A DNA stretch of 64,000 bases. It comes from Anaerostipes butyraticus (GTDB lineage Bacteria; Bacillota; Clostridia; Lachnospirales; Lachnospiraceae). Below the pieces are notes generated by a model. That model saw nothing but the letters and a program-made list of their open reading frames with translations. It was not told where the DNA came from and searched no databases. Positions 1-6,377 of this stretch are shown one piece after another. A program made the translations under genes and the position numbers. How positions within the stretch are numbered: the first letter of the stretch is position 1; the number at the start of each line of letters is the position of its first letter. The stretch spans positions 1-64,000 of the forward strand of contig NZ_BLYI01000009.1 in assembly GCF_016586355.1 (NCBI RefSeq), written 5' to 3'.

Positions 1-1177
1 CCGCAGCCTGCAGAGATAATTTCAGCCGAGAATCTTCTCTCTCACTCGCTCTTTTTCTGCAAAGCAGGCTTTCCCTTGCGTTATATGTAAGAAGCTGATA
101 TATGATTTCTACAATATCCTCTTCTGCAATCTCTCCTCTGTCATATGTCTGAAACGAAATAACGATTTCCATTTCATTCTCCCTGCAGAACTTGGACATA
201 TAAAAAAGAATCCCGTCCACAAGCCAGTCATTGCAGTAAATTCCTGTCTGTACTGCTTCATATTTCTTTTTCAAATCTCTCATGTATTTCCAGAGTTTTT
301 TCTGATTTGCTTTGGAAATTTCTCCATGCCTAATCTGGTCCGCAATCATGTTGATCTGATCAATCCGTAAATCTTCCCGACTCGATTCCATTTTCATAAT
401 CTGCTGTTTTAATACCTGCAAATAGTTGTCCATAAAAGATGTTTGAGTGTACAGAAAAGCATTTGCATTCTCTGTTTTACTGCGGTACTGTACAAAAAGG
501 CAAAAGCACGCAATGCTTCCCACAACTGACACCATAAGTATTGGCAGCATAATCCATCCGTTAAAAACATCACCATTTATAAGCCCCCGAAAACTTGTAG
601 CAATCCCGGAAATAAAATAAAGTCCTATGATTGTCCATCCAGTTTTTCTATGTTTCGGTTCGTATGTCTGGAGCCACGACAACAAAGGTTTCAAAAACCA
701 TATTTCAATTTTTACCAAAAAATACATCAATGGTAACGTCAGAAAATCAACCATCATGAACGGAAGCGCATACCCCATTGGGTCTCCTCGCCCCTCCAAT
801 GAGTTAATGGCTGCTAAAACGATTCCAAAAATGACAGCATAATTTACCTCACATACTATCTGCGCCAGTCCTATTTTCAATACACTGCCTAAATACATAC
901 AGCTCCAAAGGATTATATAAACCAGTGTCGAATAGACAATTAAATACGATAATTTCAAAACACGAAACCATATTTCCTCTCCCCAAAATACTCCAAGAAC
1001 ATATTCCAAAATGATGGTTTTTCCTGCCCATAACAGTCCTCGTATCACCCAGGGCACCGCCGTTTGTCTCTTTGTGACCAAAATACTGTTTAAAAAAATA
1101 ATAGAAGTCAAAATATATTCAATTCCAAAAATCAGAATTCTCAGACATGTACCTGCAATTTCCATAGTTTTCTCCAT
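1..1177 (-). CDS. AgrC-like membrane pseudokinase, third tandem paralogue (3' end outside window)
   Basis: Partial: the C-terminus runs off the left edge. The ATG at 1177 lies one base after the TAA of the upstream paralogue, so translation is probably coupled; an in-frame ATG at 1165 is the alternative. The protein starts MEKTMEIAGTCLRIL and has several hydrophobic segments, then a helical region ending in a motif (KYEAVQTGIYCNDWLVDGIL) nearly identical to the paralogue at 2603-3937. The place where AgrC-type kinases carry RHDxxxH reads INMIADQIRHG, and the N-box position reads IIYQLLTYNARESL, so the phospho-acceptor histidine and the asparagines are missing. Likely a membrane sensor without kinase activity. 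Paralogy is seen directly; the function is inferred. Confidence 0.75.
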   Translation of the reverse strand, partial: MEKTMEIAGTCLRILIFGIEYILTSIIFLNSILVTKRQTAVPWVIRGLLWAGKTIILEYVLGVFWGEEIWFRVLKLSYLIVYSTLVYIILWSCMYLGSVLKIGLAQIVCEVNYAVIFGIVLAAINSLEGRGDPMGYALPFMMVDFLTLPLMYFLVKIEIWFLKPLLSWLQTYEPKHRKTGWTIIGLYFISGIATSFRGLINGDVFNGWIMLPILMVSVVGSIACFCLFVQYRSKTENANAFLYTQTSFMDNYLQVLKQQIMKMESSREDLRIDQINMIADQIRHGEISKANQKKLWKYMRDLKKKYEAVQTGIYCNDWLVDGILFYMSKFCRENEMEIVISFQTYDRGEIAEEDIVEIIYQLLTYNARESLLCRKRASEREDSRLKLSLQAA

Positions 1178-1178
1178 G

Positions 1179-2600
1179 TTACGACTGTATTTCCAGGTGA
1201 GATACATTCGTTTCCGCATTATTATCCCTGCCCGCCAAAATAGTTTCTATTTTCAGCTGATTTTCTTCTTCTACAGTCTGCATATTTCCGCCAAATTGTT
1301 TTACGCAGCGTCTTAACGTCTTAATAGGTTTTCTGCTCTGAGAATGATGCCTCAATCTCTGCAGCAATGTTCTCTCCTTTGCCCTTCTATCTTCCGGCAC
1401 TTTATATTCCAATCGGAAAATAACCTGATTCTTTACCGTTCCGCCGTACAACTTTATTGTACTTTCTCTCTGTCCATCCTCTCTGTTTTTTGTCAGAGCA
1501 GTTTCCAGCAGACACATCAGAACCTTTCCCGCGCACATCTCATCCAGACTGCCCTTCCTGTATCTGGCAAATGATATTTCCAAAATCAGATTTTGTCTTT
1601 TAAAAATATCTGCGTAATAATACAAAACAGAATCTACAAACATATCATCACTGTACACTCCCGCCTGTATTTTCTGATACTGGTTTTGTATTGCCTTTAT
1701 ATAGTTTTCTATCTGAACTGTTCCCTCAAAAACTCCTATCTGTTTTATCTTCTCCATTTGTTTATCTATGATTTGCTGTTCCATTTCCATATTCTGGATT
1801 TGCTGTCTGACCGCCTTCATATGCAGCATCATCAGATTTTGCTTTATGTTCAGAAATTCATGTTCCTGAAAAATCTGCTGCTGATATTTTCTGTAACTCC
1901 AGGCAGTAAGGCAAAAAGCTGCAATCAATACCAGAGCCACAATTAAGATTCCCATTTTGTATGTTCTGAAGATTCTTTCCAGGCTGTTTAGTGTACTCTG
2001 ATAAAATCCAACTCCAATATAAAGAAAAAAGATAACTGTCCAAAATTTTTTATGCTTTAATTCCTGATTTCTAAATCTGGAGATCTTTTTTCCGCAAAAT
2101 GTCCGGACCAGAAACCGAATGCAAAAGAACGTAGCGAAACAAAGCAGGCAGAGTAAAACGGTTCTCCATCCAAATGGTCTGGAATACATATCTTCTATTC
2201 CAGACCCCGGATTTTGAAGCAATATGATGCTGCCTCTGCTGATTGTCAGAGCCAGCAATTCTCCGCTGATACTGATGAGAACACTTTTTATTATGCTGTC
2301 TTCATATGTATACCAAAACGCAAATAAATATAAGATAATATGTACTGTTTTTATAAACATAAGGAGCCACTGCGCCGCCAAATAGTGTTCTATATCTGCA
2401 CTTAGTCCCATTTGAAAAACACAGTCTATTATGATTATTTTTACCGCACAGCAAAGGGCGATCCACTTTACAGAATGTACTCTTCTTAATAACTCATCCT
2501 GGACCAGTATCGCAATGGCAGAATGAATGGTTCCAAAGATTATGAGATTCATTATAATCACCTTTTGCCCGGCCAGGTTCGCCCAGATTTGTCCCCACAT
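1179..2600 (-). CDS. AgrC-like membrane pseudokinase, second tandem paralogue
   Basis: 473 residues, the most diverged of the three paralogues. The ATG at 2600 sits two bases after the upstream stop, with AGGGAG about 8 bases ahead; a later in-frame Met (MNLIIFGTI) is possible. Six to seven hydrophobic helices fill roughly residues 15-235, followed by a coiled region (MKAVRQQIQNMEMEQQII) and the family motif IQAGVYSDDMFVDSVLYYYA. At the H-box position there is no RHD, and at the N-box position the sequence reads VLMCLLETALTKN instead of HNLLDNAVEA. No glycine-rich ATP lid is visible. It lies between the first and third paralogues with 1-2 bp gaps, so all are probably one transcript with the kinase and regulator. 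Proposed role: a sensory, non-catalytic partner of the kinase at 3954-4688. Confidence 0.75.
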   Translation of the reverse strand: MWGQIWANLAGQKVIIMNLIIFGTIHSAIAILVQDELLRRVHSVKWIALCCAVKIIIIDCVFQMGLSADIEHYLAAQWLLMFIKTVHIILYLFAFWYTYEDSIIKSVLISISGELLALTISRGSIILLQNPGSGIEDMYSRPFGWRTVLLCLLCFATFFCIRFLVRTFCGKKISRFRNQELKHKKFWTVIFFLYIGVGFYQSTLNSLERIFRTYKMGILIVALVLIAAFCLTAWSYRKYQQQIFQEHEFLNIKQNLMMLHMKAVRQQIQNMEMEQQIIDKQMEKIKQIGVFEGTVQIENYIKAIQNQYQKIQAGVYSDDMFVDSVLYYYADIFKRQNLILEISFARYRKGSLDEMCAGKVLMCLLETALTKNREDGQRESTIKLYGGTVKNQVIFRLEYKVPEDRRAKERTLLQRLRHHSQSRKPIKTLRRCVKQFGGNMQTVEEENQLKIETILAGRDNNAETNVSHLEIQS

Positions 2601-2602
2601 GA

Positions 2603-3937
2603 TTACTTCTCCCTCTGCATTTGAATACTAATCTGTTTCTTCTCCCCTTTGATTTCTGACGCGATGATTTCCCCATGATAAGGAACTATTTTTATCGAAA
2701 GACTTCTTTTCAAGTCTCTTTTCAATTTTTTTATTGATTTCACAGAACAAAATGAAGCATTCAAAATCAGCTGATTTCTCACTGCCTCTGCCTGCAGGAA
2801 TAGGGAACGGGAATCTCTCTTTTCTTCTCTGCAACGCAGACTTTCCCTCACGCCATATGCAAGCAGCTGATATATAATTTCTGAAATATCTTCTTCTGAA
2901 ATGTATCCCCTGTCATATTTTTGAAAATAAAAAGATGCTGCAATTCCATTTTCTCTGCAAAATTCTGCCATATGATAAAGGACTCCATCCACCAGCCAGT
3001 CATTACAGTAGATTCCTGCCTGTATAGCTTCATATTTTTCTTTCAGATTCTCCATATAGTTCCATAATTTCTCCCGGCTGAATCCTTTCATTTCTTCATT
3101 TTCTATCTGTCCTGCAATTCGATTCATCCGGGTTATCTGCGAACTTTTCTGATCCGACTCTGCTGTCTGTATCTGCTGCCTTAACAATTGAAAATAGTTT
3201 TTCATAAATGCCGTCTGGGAATATAAAAAAGTATTTGCCTGCTCTGTCTTCTTGCGATACCGCATGAAAACCAGAAATCCCACGATACTCCCTGCAACGG
3301 ATACGATAAATACCGGAAACACCGTCCAGTCAATAAAAACATTTCCATTGTCAAGTCCCCAAAAACTTGAAATAATTCCTGAGATAAAATATCCTCCTAC
3401 AATGACCCATCCAATTTTTCTATATTTCACTTCACGAACCCGAATCCATGATAATAAAGGTTTTAAAAAATGTATTTCTATTTTTACCACGCCATACGTA
3501 ACCGGAAACAGCAAAAGATCCGGCAGCATAAACGGAAGCATATATCCCATCAGTTCTTCTCTGTTCTCCAAATAATTAAAAATAATCAAAACCGCACCTA
3601 TAATGATGCAATAATTTACTTCACACACAATCTGTGCTAATCCGGTTTTTAAGACACTGCTGGAATACATACAGCCCGCCAGGATGATATATACTAAAGT
3701 GGAATGGATCGTTATATAAGATAATTTCAAACATTGGAACCACAGCTGGTCTCCCCAGAATGAACCCATAACATATTCCAGCACAAGCGTTTTGGTCATC
3801 CACAATATGGTGAGCATAAACACAAACAGGATGGTTCTTTTTTTCTTAATCAGAACTGTATCTAAAAAGGTTATGTTAATTAAAACATATGTCATCCCCA
3901 AAATCAGAATCCTCAGACATGTTTCTGCCATCTGCAT
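2603..3937 (-). CDS. AgrC-like membrane pseudokinase, first tandem paralogue
   Basis: 444 residues from the ATG at 3937 (MQMAETCLRILILG), chosen because GAGGAAAG lies just upstream; a longer reading frame would overlap the preceding kinase gene by 53 bp. About seven transmembrane helices in residues 5-225, then a coiled region and the motif YEAIQAGIYCNDWLVDGVLY. This part aligns with the dimerisation/ATPase part of the neighbouring GHKL kinase, but RHDLAKH is replaced by MNRIAGQIENE and HNLLDNAVEA by IIYQLLAYGVRESL. The C-terminal 90 residues have lost the GxG lid. It closely resembles the third paralogue. Membrane location is clear; loss of kinase activity is inferred from the missing residues. 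Such topology suits peptide sensing, as in AgrC, but no ligand is identified here. Confidence 0.78.
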   Translation of the reverse strand: MQMAETCLRILILGMTYVLINITFLDTVLIKKKRTILFVFMLTILWMTKTLVLEYVMGSFWGDQLWFQCLKLSYITIHSTLVYIILAGCMYSSSVLKTGLAQIVCEVNYCIIIGAVLIIFNYLENREELMGYMLPFMLPDLLLFPVTYGVVKIEIHFLKPLLSWIRVREVKYRKIGWVIVGGYFISGIISSFWGLDNGNVFIDWTVFPVFIVSVAGSIVGFLVFMRYRKKTEQANTFLYSQTAFMKNYFQLLRQQIQTAESDQKSSQITRMNRIAGQIENEEMKGFSREKLWNYMENLKEKYEAIQAGIYCNDWLVDGVLYHMAEFCRENGIAASFYFQKYDRGYISEEDISEIIYQLLAYGVRESLRCREEKRDSRSLFLQAEAVRNQLILNASFCSVKSIKKLKRDLKRSLSIKIVPYHGEIIASEIKGEKKQISIQMQREK

Positions 3938-3953
3938 ATTTCTTTCCTCGTTC

Positions 3954-4688
3954 CTACTCTTTGCAGCATAAGATAATCTCCTCTTCGAAGATCCCTTCTT
4001 TTTCATCTACTCTGATTTTCATCGTGCCGGAATATTTTTCTACAAGATTTTCAATAATCTTTGTTCCGATTCCATGCTCCTCTTTCCTGGCCTTACTGGT
4101 CTCAAAAGTTACTTTCTCCCCTTTCTGAACTCGATTTCTGACATGAATCCATATATTTTTCTCATCCCGGCGCATAGAAAACCAGACTCCTTTTTCATCA
4201 CCATCTGTGATTCGATCCTGTGCTTCAACAGCATTATCCAAAAGATTATGGAGAAGCCCTACAATATCTATTTCTTCTATTCCATTATAAATACAGTCCT
4301 CTACTTTTACATCAAATAGTATGCCTCGTTCCGCGCACTGTTCCTTCTTAATCGTTAAAATGGAGTTGACCAATTCATCTCTGCAAAATTCCTGATGCTT
4401 CAACAAGTCATATCTCTGCTTCAGATTATCCATATATTCCTGTATTTCACCGGAATCGGATTGTCTCCCCATAAGTTCTTCCAATGTCTGGATATGTTTT
4501 GCCAGATCATGCCTGTATTTTCTTGTGGCGTCAATTCTGCTTTGTATTCCGGCGTAAAATTCTTCCATGGAAAACATATACGACTGCATCAGACGATTTT
4601 CCTGCTCCATCTCACGTGTCTTCATAACACCAGCAGCAAGAATAAAGCATACAAGCAGCGCAATACATAAAACAATCGGTATCCACAT
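3954..4688 (-). CDS. Short GHKL sensor histidine kinase, AgrC type, one membrane helix
   Basis: 244 residues. One hydrophobic helix at about residues 4-21, a coiled linker, then an AgrC-type phospho-acceptor motif YRHDLAKHIQ (His60). The GHKL ATPase domain shows the N box HNLLDNAVEA (147-156) and the G-box HGIGTK (205-210). It is half the length of typical AgrC/ComD kinases (about 430 residues) because the polytopic sensor domain is absent. It lies 28 bp after the LytTR regulator and just before three membrane paralogues that have the sensor domain but lack these catalytic residues. That complementarity suggests the kinase takes its input from them. The kinase call is firm; the split-receptor arrangement is inference. 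Confidence 0.9.
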   Translation of the reverse strand: MWIPIVLCIALLVCFILAAGVMKTREMEQENRLMQSYMFSMEEFYAGIQSRIDATRKYRHDLAKHIQTLEELMGRQSDSGEIQEYMDNLKQRYDLLKHQEFCRDELVNSILTIKKEQCAERGILFDVKVEDCIYNGIEEIDIVGLLHNLLDNAVEAQDRITDGDEKGVWFSMRRDEKNIWIHVRNRVQKGEKVTFETSKARKEEHGIGTKIIENLVEKYSGTMKIRVDEKEGIFEEEIILCCKE

Positions 4689-4716: not shown

Positions 4717-5442
4717 CTAAGATATCTGTGTCAATGCCCACCGCATGAAAGCTTCTTTTGTCGATTTTCGATAACTTCGGCTGATCATAATTCTTCTGTC
4801 ATCATTCAATATGAACAAATCTGAAAGCATTTCCCTTACCGCCGGCAGGTATACAATATAACTGTTATGGCATCGCACAAAATCGATCTCCGGCAGCTGT
4901 TTCATTAGTTCCGCTAATTTTTCTTTAATCTCATATGTACCATATACTGTTATGATATTGGTCTTTCTTCCGCTTCTCTCAAAGCAGATAATATCTGCCG
5001 GGGCAAGACTGATTTCTTTTCCCTTAATAACAGAAAAGACCAATTTCTCACGGCTCTGTGCAAGTTCATGAAGTACTTTCCCGAAAATTTCGCCAATTCT
5101 TTCTCCGAACTGCTCTTTTAACGCAAAAAACACATGATCTGTGTGATAAATCTCCGTCGCGTAATAAAGATAGTTGGTTAAATAAACAATCTGACAGTCT
5201 TTCCACTTTTGATTGATCTGTGCTGCCAGATCAATTCCAGTCACATCTTTTTCTTTCTCCTCTTCCAGGACAATATCCATAAAAATTACATCCAAAGAAG
5301 GACCCGGCCATGAAGTCAGTTCCTCCGACGAGGTGAAACAGTGTACTCTTATCTCCGTTCCCGTCTTTTTTCCATAGTCTTCTATTATATTTCCGGCATT
5401 CTTCTGCCAGATTTTATCGTCATCGCATATCCCTATCTGCAT
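4717..5442 (-). CDS. LytTR-family response regulator, AgrA-like
   Basis: 241 residues. The N-terminal receiver domain has the acidic pair in MQIGICDDDK (Asp7/Asp8) and the phospho-acceptor Asp56 in VIFMDIVLEEE. The C-terminal LytTR DNA-binding domain covers about residues 135-235 (DIICFERSGRKTNIITVYG, FVRCHNSYIVYL). It is the first gene of the kinase/pseudokinase run and starts at an ATG preceded by GAGAGGAGAAAA. LytTR regulators usually bind paired direct repeats and in Firmicutes often control peptide signalling, bacteriocin or surface functions; the target here is not visible. No agrB or agrD-like gene lies next to it within the window. Confidence 0.92.
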   Translation of the reverse strand: MQIGICDDDKIWQKNAGNIIEDYGKKTGTEIRVHCFTSSEELTSWPGPSLDVIFMDIVLEEEKEKDVTGIDLAAQINQKWKDCQIVYLTNYLYYATEIYHTDHVFFALKEQFGERIGEIFGKVLHELAQSREKLVFSVIKGKEISLAPADIICFERSGRKTNIITVYGTYEIKEKLAELMKQLPEIDFVRCHNSYIVYLPAVREMLSDLFILNDDRRIMISRSYRKSTKEAFMRWALTQIS

Positions 5443-5476: not shown

Positions 5477-5505
5477 ATTATAGCTTAAGATTGATGCGAT
5501 TACAA
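5477..5505 (-). promoter_or_regulatory. Sigma-A promoter of the LytTR/kinase operon
   Basis: Reading leftward: TTGTAA (5505-5500), a 17-base spacer and TATAAT (5482-5477), about 35 bases ahead of the regulator start codon. A GATTG/CAATC dyad overlaps the -35 region and could be an operator, though this is weak. Confidence 0.7.
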
Positions 5506-5546: not shown

Positions 5547-6377
5547 TTATACTATATTTCCAATTATAAACACCGCAAAAAATATCATTCCGAGGCCTGA
5601 CAGAATCTTTCCTATTTTTGCTCCCAGATCCTGATTATACTTCCCTGTCACCCAGGCAGCCGCCAGCTGAATGACAAAATATATGATCAGCGTGTAATGG
5701 ATTCCCTGAAAGGACAGCGCCCCTCCCTGATTTCCGGACCATATGGGAACACCCCAGGATACCAGAAACATATCCCCCAGGCACATCCCCATCCGATAAG
5801 GAAACCCGAACAGCCATCCAAGCAGTGACAGACAAAAGCCGTAAGTTCCATAACCTGCCGGTTTTGCTCCGCTGGCTTTCCAGCATTTTTTCAAACTCCA
5901 GAAAACCAGATAGCCTGCCAGACATCCAATGGCATTGGCAGTCACGTCGTCTATATCTGCCAGTCTTCCTGTGAATAAAAACTGAATGATCTCAATTCCA
6001 AGAGACAGAATTATCCCAAAGCCAATATATTTCCAATGCCATTTTGTATCCTTCTGAGAGATCAGCGGCGGAAAAACACCGGCCGGAAGAAATAAGAGTA
6101 CATTTAATAAGAAGTAACTGGCGTCAAAATCCTGAAAGGGAATCATTTGATCATTATGTGCATTATGAATCGACCAGGGCGCTGCAATCCCTGTAATCAT
6201 CAGAAGCGTCACCAGATACACCAGGGCGATATAGTATAAAATATAATCCTTTCCCTGTCCGGCAGACTTTTTTAAACATATTTTGTGGAACCCATAGAGC
6301 ATCAGTGTCAAAAGAAGCCCGATCCAGCAGGCTTTTGACAAATATGACATGCCGATTAATAATTTAGAAACTATCAT
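5547..6377 (-). CDS. VanZ-like membrane protein
   Basis: 276 residues with about seven hydrophobic helices. The central part shows the VanZ-family signature: an NVLLFLPAGVFPPL-type helix, then SLGIEIIQFLFTGRLADIDD and a following helix with ANAIGCLAGYL. VanZ-like proteins are integral membrane proteins; the founding member gives low-level teicoplanin resistance, but most chromosomal ones have no assigned role. It is 13 bp downstream of the lipoprotein gene at 6391-7218 and probably co-transcribed with it. No van cluster is nearby, so glycopeptide resistance should not be assumed. The extra C-terminal helices (about residues 180-276) are longer than the minimal VanZ domain. Confidence 0.85.
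   Translation of the reverse strand: MIVSKLLIGMSYLSKACWIGLLLTLMLYGFHKICLKKSAGQGKDYILYYIALVYLVTLLMITGIAAPWSIHNAHNDQMIPFQDFDASYFLLNVLLFLPAGVFPPLISQKDTKWHWKYIGFGIILSLGIEIIQFLFTGRLADIDDVTANAIGCLAGYLVFWSLKKCWKASGAKPAGYGTYGFCLSLLGWLFGFPYRMGMCLGDMFLVSWGVPIWSGNQGGALSFQGIHYTLIIYFVIQLAAAWVTGKYNQDLGAKIGKILSGLGMIFFAVFIIGNIV

Follow-up and report, generated by a model that had tools for sequence, protein, structure and literature searches.

Two-component sensors are usually taken to join one signal to one kinase, and AgrC, the HPK10 receptor kinase of Staphylococcus aureus, holds sensor and catalysis in one chain, with a multi-helix sensor, a coil, a two-helix dimerisation domain and a GHKL domain, and acts with a LytTR regulator. 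George Cisar and colleagues reportedly found in 2009 that S. aureus AgrC autophosphorylates in trans and that one working sensor activates either kinase domain. In Treponema denticola, the AtcS/AtcR system pairs a LytTR regulator with a membrane kinase in which no sensing domain is identifiable (PMC12070737). The locus considered here lies at the start of a stretch of 64,000 nucleotides from Anaerostipes butyraticus (the window, positions 1 to 64,000 of contig NZ_BLYI01000009.1, here C9, from base 1 of that contig, in a genome of 3.17 Mb in 85 contigs), and the elements of AgrC appear in it, as in some other gut bacteria, to be distributed over separate proteins, encoded by the following genes:

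4717..5442, minus strand: LytTR response regulator with a receiver (Pfam)
3954..4688, minus strand: one-helix GHKL histidine kinase of 244 amino acids (Pfam, hydropathy, motif alignment)
2603..3937, minus strand: p1, type A seven-helix pseudokinase (the open reading frame, ORF, opens at 4006; start 3937 preferred)
1179..2600, minus strand: p2, type B seven-helix pseudokinase (hydropathy, motif columns, model)
1..1177 (start approximate), minus strand: p3, type A pseudokinase truncated by the contig end (57% identity to p1)

It is proposed, with a probability of roughly 60%, that these genes encode a split AgrC-like receptor made up of pseudokinase sensors, a one-helix kinase and a LytTR regulator. 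A preliminary description of this DNA had already suggested that sensing and catalysis are split between proteins, and the present analysis supports that view by dead paralogues with a predicted kinase fold and by a conserved gene order, whereas we infer the physical partnership and the sensing by the seven-helix part.

For the kinase, Pfam, hydropathy and alignment agree with what had been described, namely His60, N box and G box behind one membrane helix. The protein matched HATPase_c_5 (E 2.2e-19), its His60 aligned with the RKFRHD motif of AgrC, the N box (residues 148-156) and G box (205-208) were both present, and hydropathy revealed one hydrophobic segment, so that no multi-helix sensor resides in the same chain. 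The regulator matched LytTR in Pfam (1e-17), with Response_reg at 3.7e-6 and 27.5 bits, below the cut-off of 30.2, and carries Asp56, Thr89 and Lys109 as read from its sequence, residues which we take to have functional roles. The kinase thus looks complete, with its histidine and ATP site kept, and because the regulator retains Asp56, phosphotransfer between the two should work.

The three paralogues p1, p2 and p3 each showed seven hydrophobic segments at a mean Kyte-Doolittle cut of 1.2, as the preliminary description had it. At a cut of 1.4, p2 showed six segments, yet seven long helices in its model, and the pseudokinases of linked loci showed 5 to 7. Identity between p1 and p3 was 56-58%, while p2 is of a different type. 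In the columns of the His, N box and G box, the motif was lost in 15 of 15 pseudokinases and kept in 13 of 13 kinases, with p3 excluded for its missing C-terminus and the frameshifted kinase of G036 also excluded. A comparison of residue conservation in 17 pseudokinases and 14 kinases revealed that the catalytic residues His60, Asp61, Asn148, Asn152, Gly206 and Gly208 are among those conserved in the kinases only, whereas the coil after the last membrane helix, the second dimerisation helix, the GHKL junction and the GHKL core are conserved in both. The pseudokinases also have conserved residues of their own (e.g., A307, G308, Y310, D317 and V386-N388-Q389-L390 in p1 numbering). Their lid/G-box segment is absent and their His and N-box columns are substituted, and a known catalytic family with displaced motifs was therefore rejected. 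In AgrC, the ATP-binding loop spans E384-G394 and the G-box glycines are 394 and 396 (PMC6755735). Judged by alignment to the kinases, the part missing from the pseudokinases probably corresponds to this loop.

None of p1-p3 exceeded a Pfam or NCBIfam cut-off, those of the GHKL families included, and a weak GHKL match appeared in three of the 16 family members scanned (best E 0.0049). The kinship of p1-p3 to AgrC is therefore missed by routine labelling. A sequence-profile search of the pseudokinases against PDB sequences yielded 16 weak matches (E 0.005 and above) with no kinase among them, so that kinship to kinases is visible by fold comparison only. The AlphaFold2 model of p1 (16 sequences, mean pLDDT 76.0, pTM 0.52) has a seven-helix membrane part, then a long helix and a second one, and a GHKL-type order of helices and strands, and that of p2 (18 sequences, pLDDT 75.6, pTM 0.46) has the same architecture. 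Foldseek against 350,542 PDB chains ranked the AgrC cytoplasmic kinase first for both p1 (E 3.6e-6) and p2 (E 5.0e-7); with p2, third place went to the ATP-binding domain of AgrC. The fit to the whole AgrC module was loose (rmsd 12.4 for p1 and 9.9 for p2; TM-score by target 0.44 and 0.49), and single catalytic domains fitted better, for example with TM-scores of 0.68 for ThkA with p1 and 0.73 for the AgrC domain with p2. At moderate model confidence, p1 and p2 are predicted to keep the helix pair and the GHKL alpha/beta fold of a kinase.

The gene order was searched for in a family sample of 397 genomes, an order sample of 392 genomes and a wide scan of an 84,980-species genome collection, and the same arrangement was found in other loci and genera. 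A single-sequence search with p1 hit seven of the 397 genomes at E 1e-8 or better, the seventh, G218, by a full-length kinase. A pseudokinase profile matched six of the 397 at E <1e-90 (the next match, at E 3e-48, was a full-length kinase), and a one-helix kinase profile matched the identical six at E <1e-50 (Fisher p 2e-13), figures that carry some circularity in that the 8-row pseudokinase profile was built from those six genomes, all of which the p1 search had already found, and the kinase profile includes five of the six matched kinases. The genes are linked in five of the six; in G131 a pseudokinase and the regulator share a contig from which the kinase is absent, the kinase lying on a different one, and the co-occurrence is thus not due to linkage alone. 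A pseudokinase at E 1e-25 or better was present in four of the 392 genomes of the order sample, of which G705 was new. Among the named hosts in the wide scan are Blautia sp. An81, Candidatus Blautia pullistercoris, Candidatus Blautia merdipullorum, a Hespellia metagenome-assembled genome and Candidatus Anaerobutyricum avicola. Among viral contigs, three pattern matches were obtained, none of them a relative by tblastn.

The wide scan, made with a kinase alignment, covered the best 80 of 457 relatives, the long kinases among them being therefore those nearest to this subfamily, and 79 of the 80 loci had a callable kinase (no kinase ORF was called in L125). With a threshold of 80 bits for a pseudokinase neighbour, such a neighbour accompanied nine of the 14 short kinases and none of the 65 long ones. 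Of the nine loci, only L058 (Blautia sp. An81) had been in the profile; the other eight had not. The five short kinases lacking a pseudokinase were more distant (80-100 bits). Altogether, 14 linked loci were compared (window, L018, L019, L022, L023, L151, L057, L059-L063, L066 and L067), and more than one pseudokinase occurred only in the window and G705. G705, a genome from a different genus, repeats the window's order of regulator, kinase, type A and type B. Types A and B form separate clades (99/99 each) that both contain copies from the window and G705, so that the two receptor types were kept, or moved, together.

In 11 of the 14 linked loci the pair is adjoined by a regulator related to that of the window, and G131 has its pseudokinase beside the regulator, with the kinase elsewhere. 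Both facts would also suit a pseudokinase fold that binds the regulator, perhaps in its phosphorylated form, rather than the kinase, and acts as a sink, brake or feedback sensor. This is considered unlikely. The helix face around the histidine, on which regulators dock in known kinases, is replaced in the pseudokinases, and L059, L062 and L067 (three of 14) pair kinase and pseudokinase with no such regulator within the sequence stretches examined, although the presence of a kinase in wide-scan loci is no independent evidence, because these loci were found through the kinase. A precedent for such a role is DivL, a pseudokinase that senses a phosphorylated regulator (PMC4211667).

Improbable to a similar degree is that the pseudokinases work with one another or with some further protein and share no more than the operon with the kinase, which would be unregulated or have a different membrane partner. 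Short LytTR-type kinases adjoining large multi-helix genes do occur, and in three of the short kinase loci that lack a pseudokinase (L097, L132 and L134) the adjoining multi-helix gene is ABC-like with the nucleotide-binding motif GAGKTT. An ABC transporter has likewise been suggested as the partner of AtcS (PMC12070737). What speaks for the kinase as partner instead is that the occurrence of the pseudokinases matches that of the kinase subfamily in six of six genomes, one of them with the pair unlinked. As a separate observation, the short GHKL kinases of L170-L174 are immediately followed by two large multi-helix genes (about 600-720 amino acids), which are ABC-exporter-like by size and layout only.

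The history of the family was examined in a tree of 67 cytoplasmic domains, in which the 36 full-length kinases were mostly drawn at random and p3 and G705 were left out. The pseudokinases formed one clade across genera (100/99). The one-helix kinases also grouped as a single clade, moderately supported (88/68), and neither clade included the full-length kinases. The membrane part of the pseudokinases matched two of 65 full-length kinases, L025 (E 4e-21) and L021 (E 6e-11), which are not a random sample as both had been brought in by the p1 search, and gave no match among 114 other multi-helix proteins. Distances of 13 sensor-kinase pairs, including the unlinked G131 pair and with the window represented by p2, correlated at r 0.91, which could equally come from shared descent.

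Loss of every catalytic motif, a C10 array member with an in-frame stop and a C10 tail under weaker constraint could be read as the decay of duplicated full-length kinases. This reading is highly improbable, and decay was rejected on dN/dS and residue conservation. In the best-resolved orthologue pair, L019/L061 (dS 0.88), dN/dS was 0.12 for the pseudokinase and 0.13 for its cytoplasmic part, and p1/p3 gave 0.21. The single clade across genera and the family-specific conserved residues likewise oppose decay. Two further pairs had a pseudokinase dN/dS of 0.09-0.10 at dS of about 2, near saturation, and two L060 pairs were saturated. The kinase gave 0.14 in L019/L061 and 0.09, 0.13 and 0.26 in other pairs, with one saturated, and the regulator 0.04-0.11. 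By these measures the system is conserved and not decaying. The same pair bears on the view that the pseudokinases bind the kinase merely as assembly or stability factors with no sensing. No ligand is known, as that view would have it, but the seven-helix part is better conserved than the cytoplasmic part (86% vs 72% identity in L019/L061) and the proteins have diverged into types, which makes it very unlikely.

Related genomes contain divisions of labour of another kind, in which histidine and ATP site lie on different proteins. In G401 (L169:5366-7494), a one-helix protein with the His motif and neither N nor G box has a 4-base overlap with a multi-helix protein that carries the two boxes and lacks the His, and no regulator of LytTR type was found within the sequence stretch examined around L169. 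In G279 (L163:4536-7153), two seven-helix proteins with the His motif end before the ATP domain and flank a two-helix protein that lacks the His but has N and G boxes; on the opposite strand, the split is adjoined by a LytTR regulator. The two G279 sensors gave a dN/dS of 0.23 with synonymous sites near saturation, and their type was present in one of 397 genomes, making it a single case. In G036, a His-only one-helix protein (L024:4586-5353) and a His-less six-helix protein with an ATP site (L021:254-1600) lie on different contigs, and their complementarity is only possible. The splits in G401, G279 and possibly G036 could function only if such AgrC-like proteins associate, and they thus back association as a property of AgrC-like proteins at large, not specifically of those in the window.

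For the split receptor, the analysis shows the anatomy of the proteins, the loss of motifs, the predicted fold, the recurrent linkage and co-occurrence, and the constraint on the pseudokinases. The mechanism itself would run as follows. The seven-helix pseudokinases would be the sensors. Their last membrane helix leads through a coil into a degenerate helix pair of the dimerisation type, the single helix of the kinase does likewise, and sensor and kinase may associate through the matching coil and helix pair. A signal at the sensor would then change the autophosphorylation of the kinase at His60, the kinase would phosphorylate the LytTR regulator at Asp56, and several sensors (types A and B, duplicated in the window) would share one kinase, with control presumably passing from sensor to kinase. 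The related splits would require one protein to phosphorylate another. For this reason a 1:1 pair of sensor and kinase may have no catalytic activity, and we therefore lean slightly towards a ligand-controlled brake, or a 2:2 complex, over a simple activating 1:1 dimer.

Several results weigh against this mechanism. The kinase alone could dimerise and function, the pseudokinase of G131 adjoins the regulator and not the kinase, and the linked kinase of G036 is frameshifted in the assembly. The p1 model was based on 16 sequences and the p2 model on 18, with pTM of 0.52 and 0.46 and a whole-module rmsd of about 10-12. Within the array, the tail of p2 against the C10 tail gave a dN/dS of 0.44 over 104 codons, a weaker constraint, and one C10 member carries an in-frame stop. 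Moreover, 12 of 15 further regions with short-frame kinases had neither a motif-less multi-helix neighbour nor a complementary split, the remaining three being L160, with such a neighbour, and L163 and L169, with the splits. The pairing is not general outside this kinase subfamily. At L160:1347-3415 (G214), a more divergent short kinase stands beside a motif-less five-helix protein, whose pseudokinase score of 70 bits is below the 80-bit line.

Three further features complete the description of the locus:

5477..5505, minus strand: promoter-like site TTGTAA-17-TATAAT, 34 bases upstream of the regulator ATG (consensus scan only)
5547-6377 of the window, same strand as the regulator and upstream of it: VanZ-like gene (Pfam 1.2e-20)
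L006:323-1633 on contig C10: p2-like gene interrupted by an in-frame TAA, likely to be the distal end of the array

On the minus strand the order is regulator, kinase, p1, p2 and p3, with intergenic gaps of 1 to 28 bases if p1 starts at 3937. The likely start of p1 is this ATG, which is preceded by GAGGAAAG; if p1 began at the first ATG of its ORF, it would overlap the kinase. The tight spacing, the common strand and the promoter-like site ahead of the regulator suggest that the five genes are co-transcribed, promoter-like sites being barely above background in the consensus scan (30 observed vs 22 expected, sd 4.5). Upstream of the regulator, a second gene on the same strand had no Pfam match. 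In an alignment of the regions upstream of six regulators, a stretch was common to four Blautia-type loci and absent from the window and G705, and because it is confined to those four loci no operator is claimed. In Blautia sp. An81 (G038), genes downstream of the locus include LytR-CpsA-Psr, sortase and O-antigen-ligase-type proteins, which hint at the cell surface, no more.

The incompleteness of p3 arises only because the assembly stops at that base. Contig C10 begins with the C-terminal 115 residues of a p2-like protein, followed by another p2-like gene. The missing first 350 residues of this C10 tail had no match in any contig of the genome, and the array thus probably runs on through an assembly gap. 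The simplest reading would be that C9 and C10 flank the gap in an array A-B-A-(gap)-B-B.

A broader idea, held only tentatively, is that an expandable set of differing pseudokinase receptors shares and competes for one catalytic subunit, that inputs are added by receptor duplication alone, and that this is part of a wider family habit by which AgrC-like proteins divide the tasks of sensor, phospho-acceptor and ATP binding between chains. If the split receptor is real, a conserved family of enzyme-dead receptors beside a sensor-less kinase would offer a case with clear genetics in which to ask how a receptor protomer controls a catalytic partner and whether bacteria gain inputs by receptor duplication only. 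The remark in the preliminary description that its author knew of no such system holds in a narrower form. In the full-text literature searched, which leaves subscription papers mostly outside and was screened mainly by title and start of abstract, no account was found in which AgrC-like pseudokinase receptors accompany a LytTR kinase that lacks a sensor. There are precedents for sensor-less kinases, for pseudokinases and for split kinases, and it is their combination that was not found in print.

The system of the window can be compared with these precedents one by one. Like AtcS, its kinase has no sensor of its own; the partner suggested for AtcS is an ABC transporter and not a pseudokinase (PMC12070737). 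BceS, in BceS-BceAB, is similarly activated via a separate sensing membrane protein, but one that is a transporter unrelated to the kinase (PMC12189002, PMC12070737). DivL of Caulobacter is a histidine pseudokinase with its fold retained, as predicted here for p1 and p2, and differs as a single protein that senses a phosphorylated regulator, in contrast to an array of multi-helix receptors (PMC4211667). CheA3/CheA4 of Rhodobacter sphaeroides share the tasks of a kinase between two proteins and resemble the splits of G401 and G279; neither phosphorylates alone (PMC3591291), whereas the window kinase keeps both its histidine and its ATP site.

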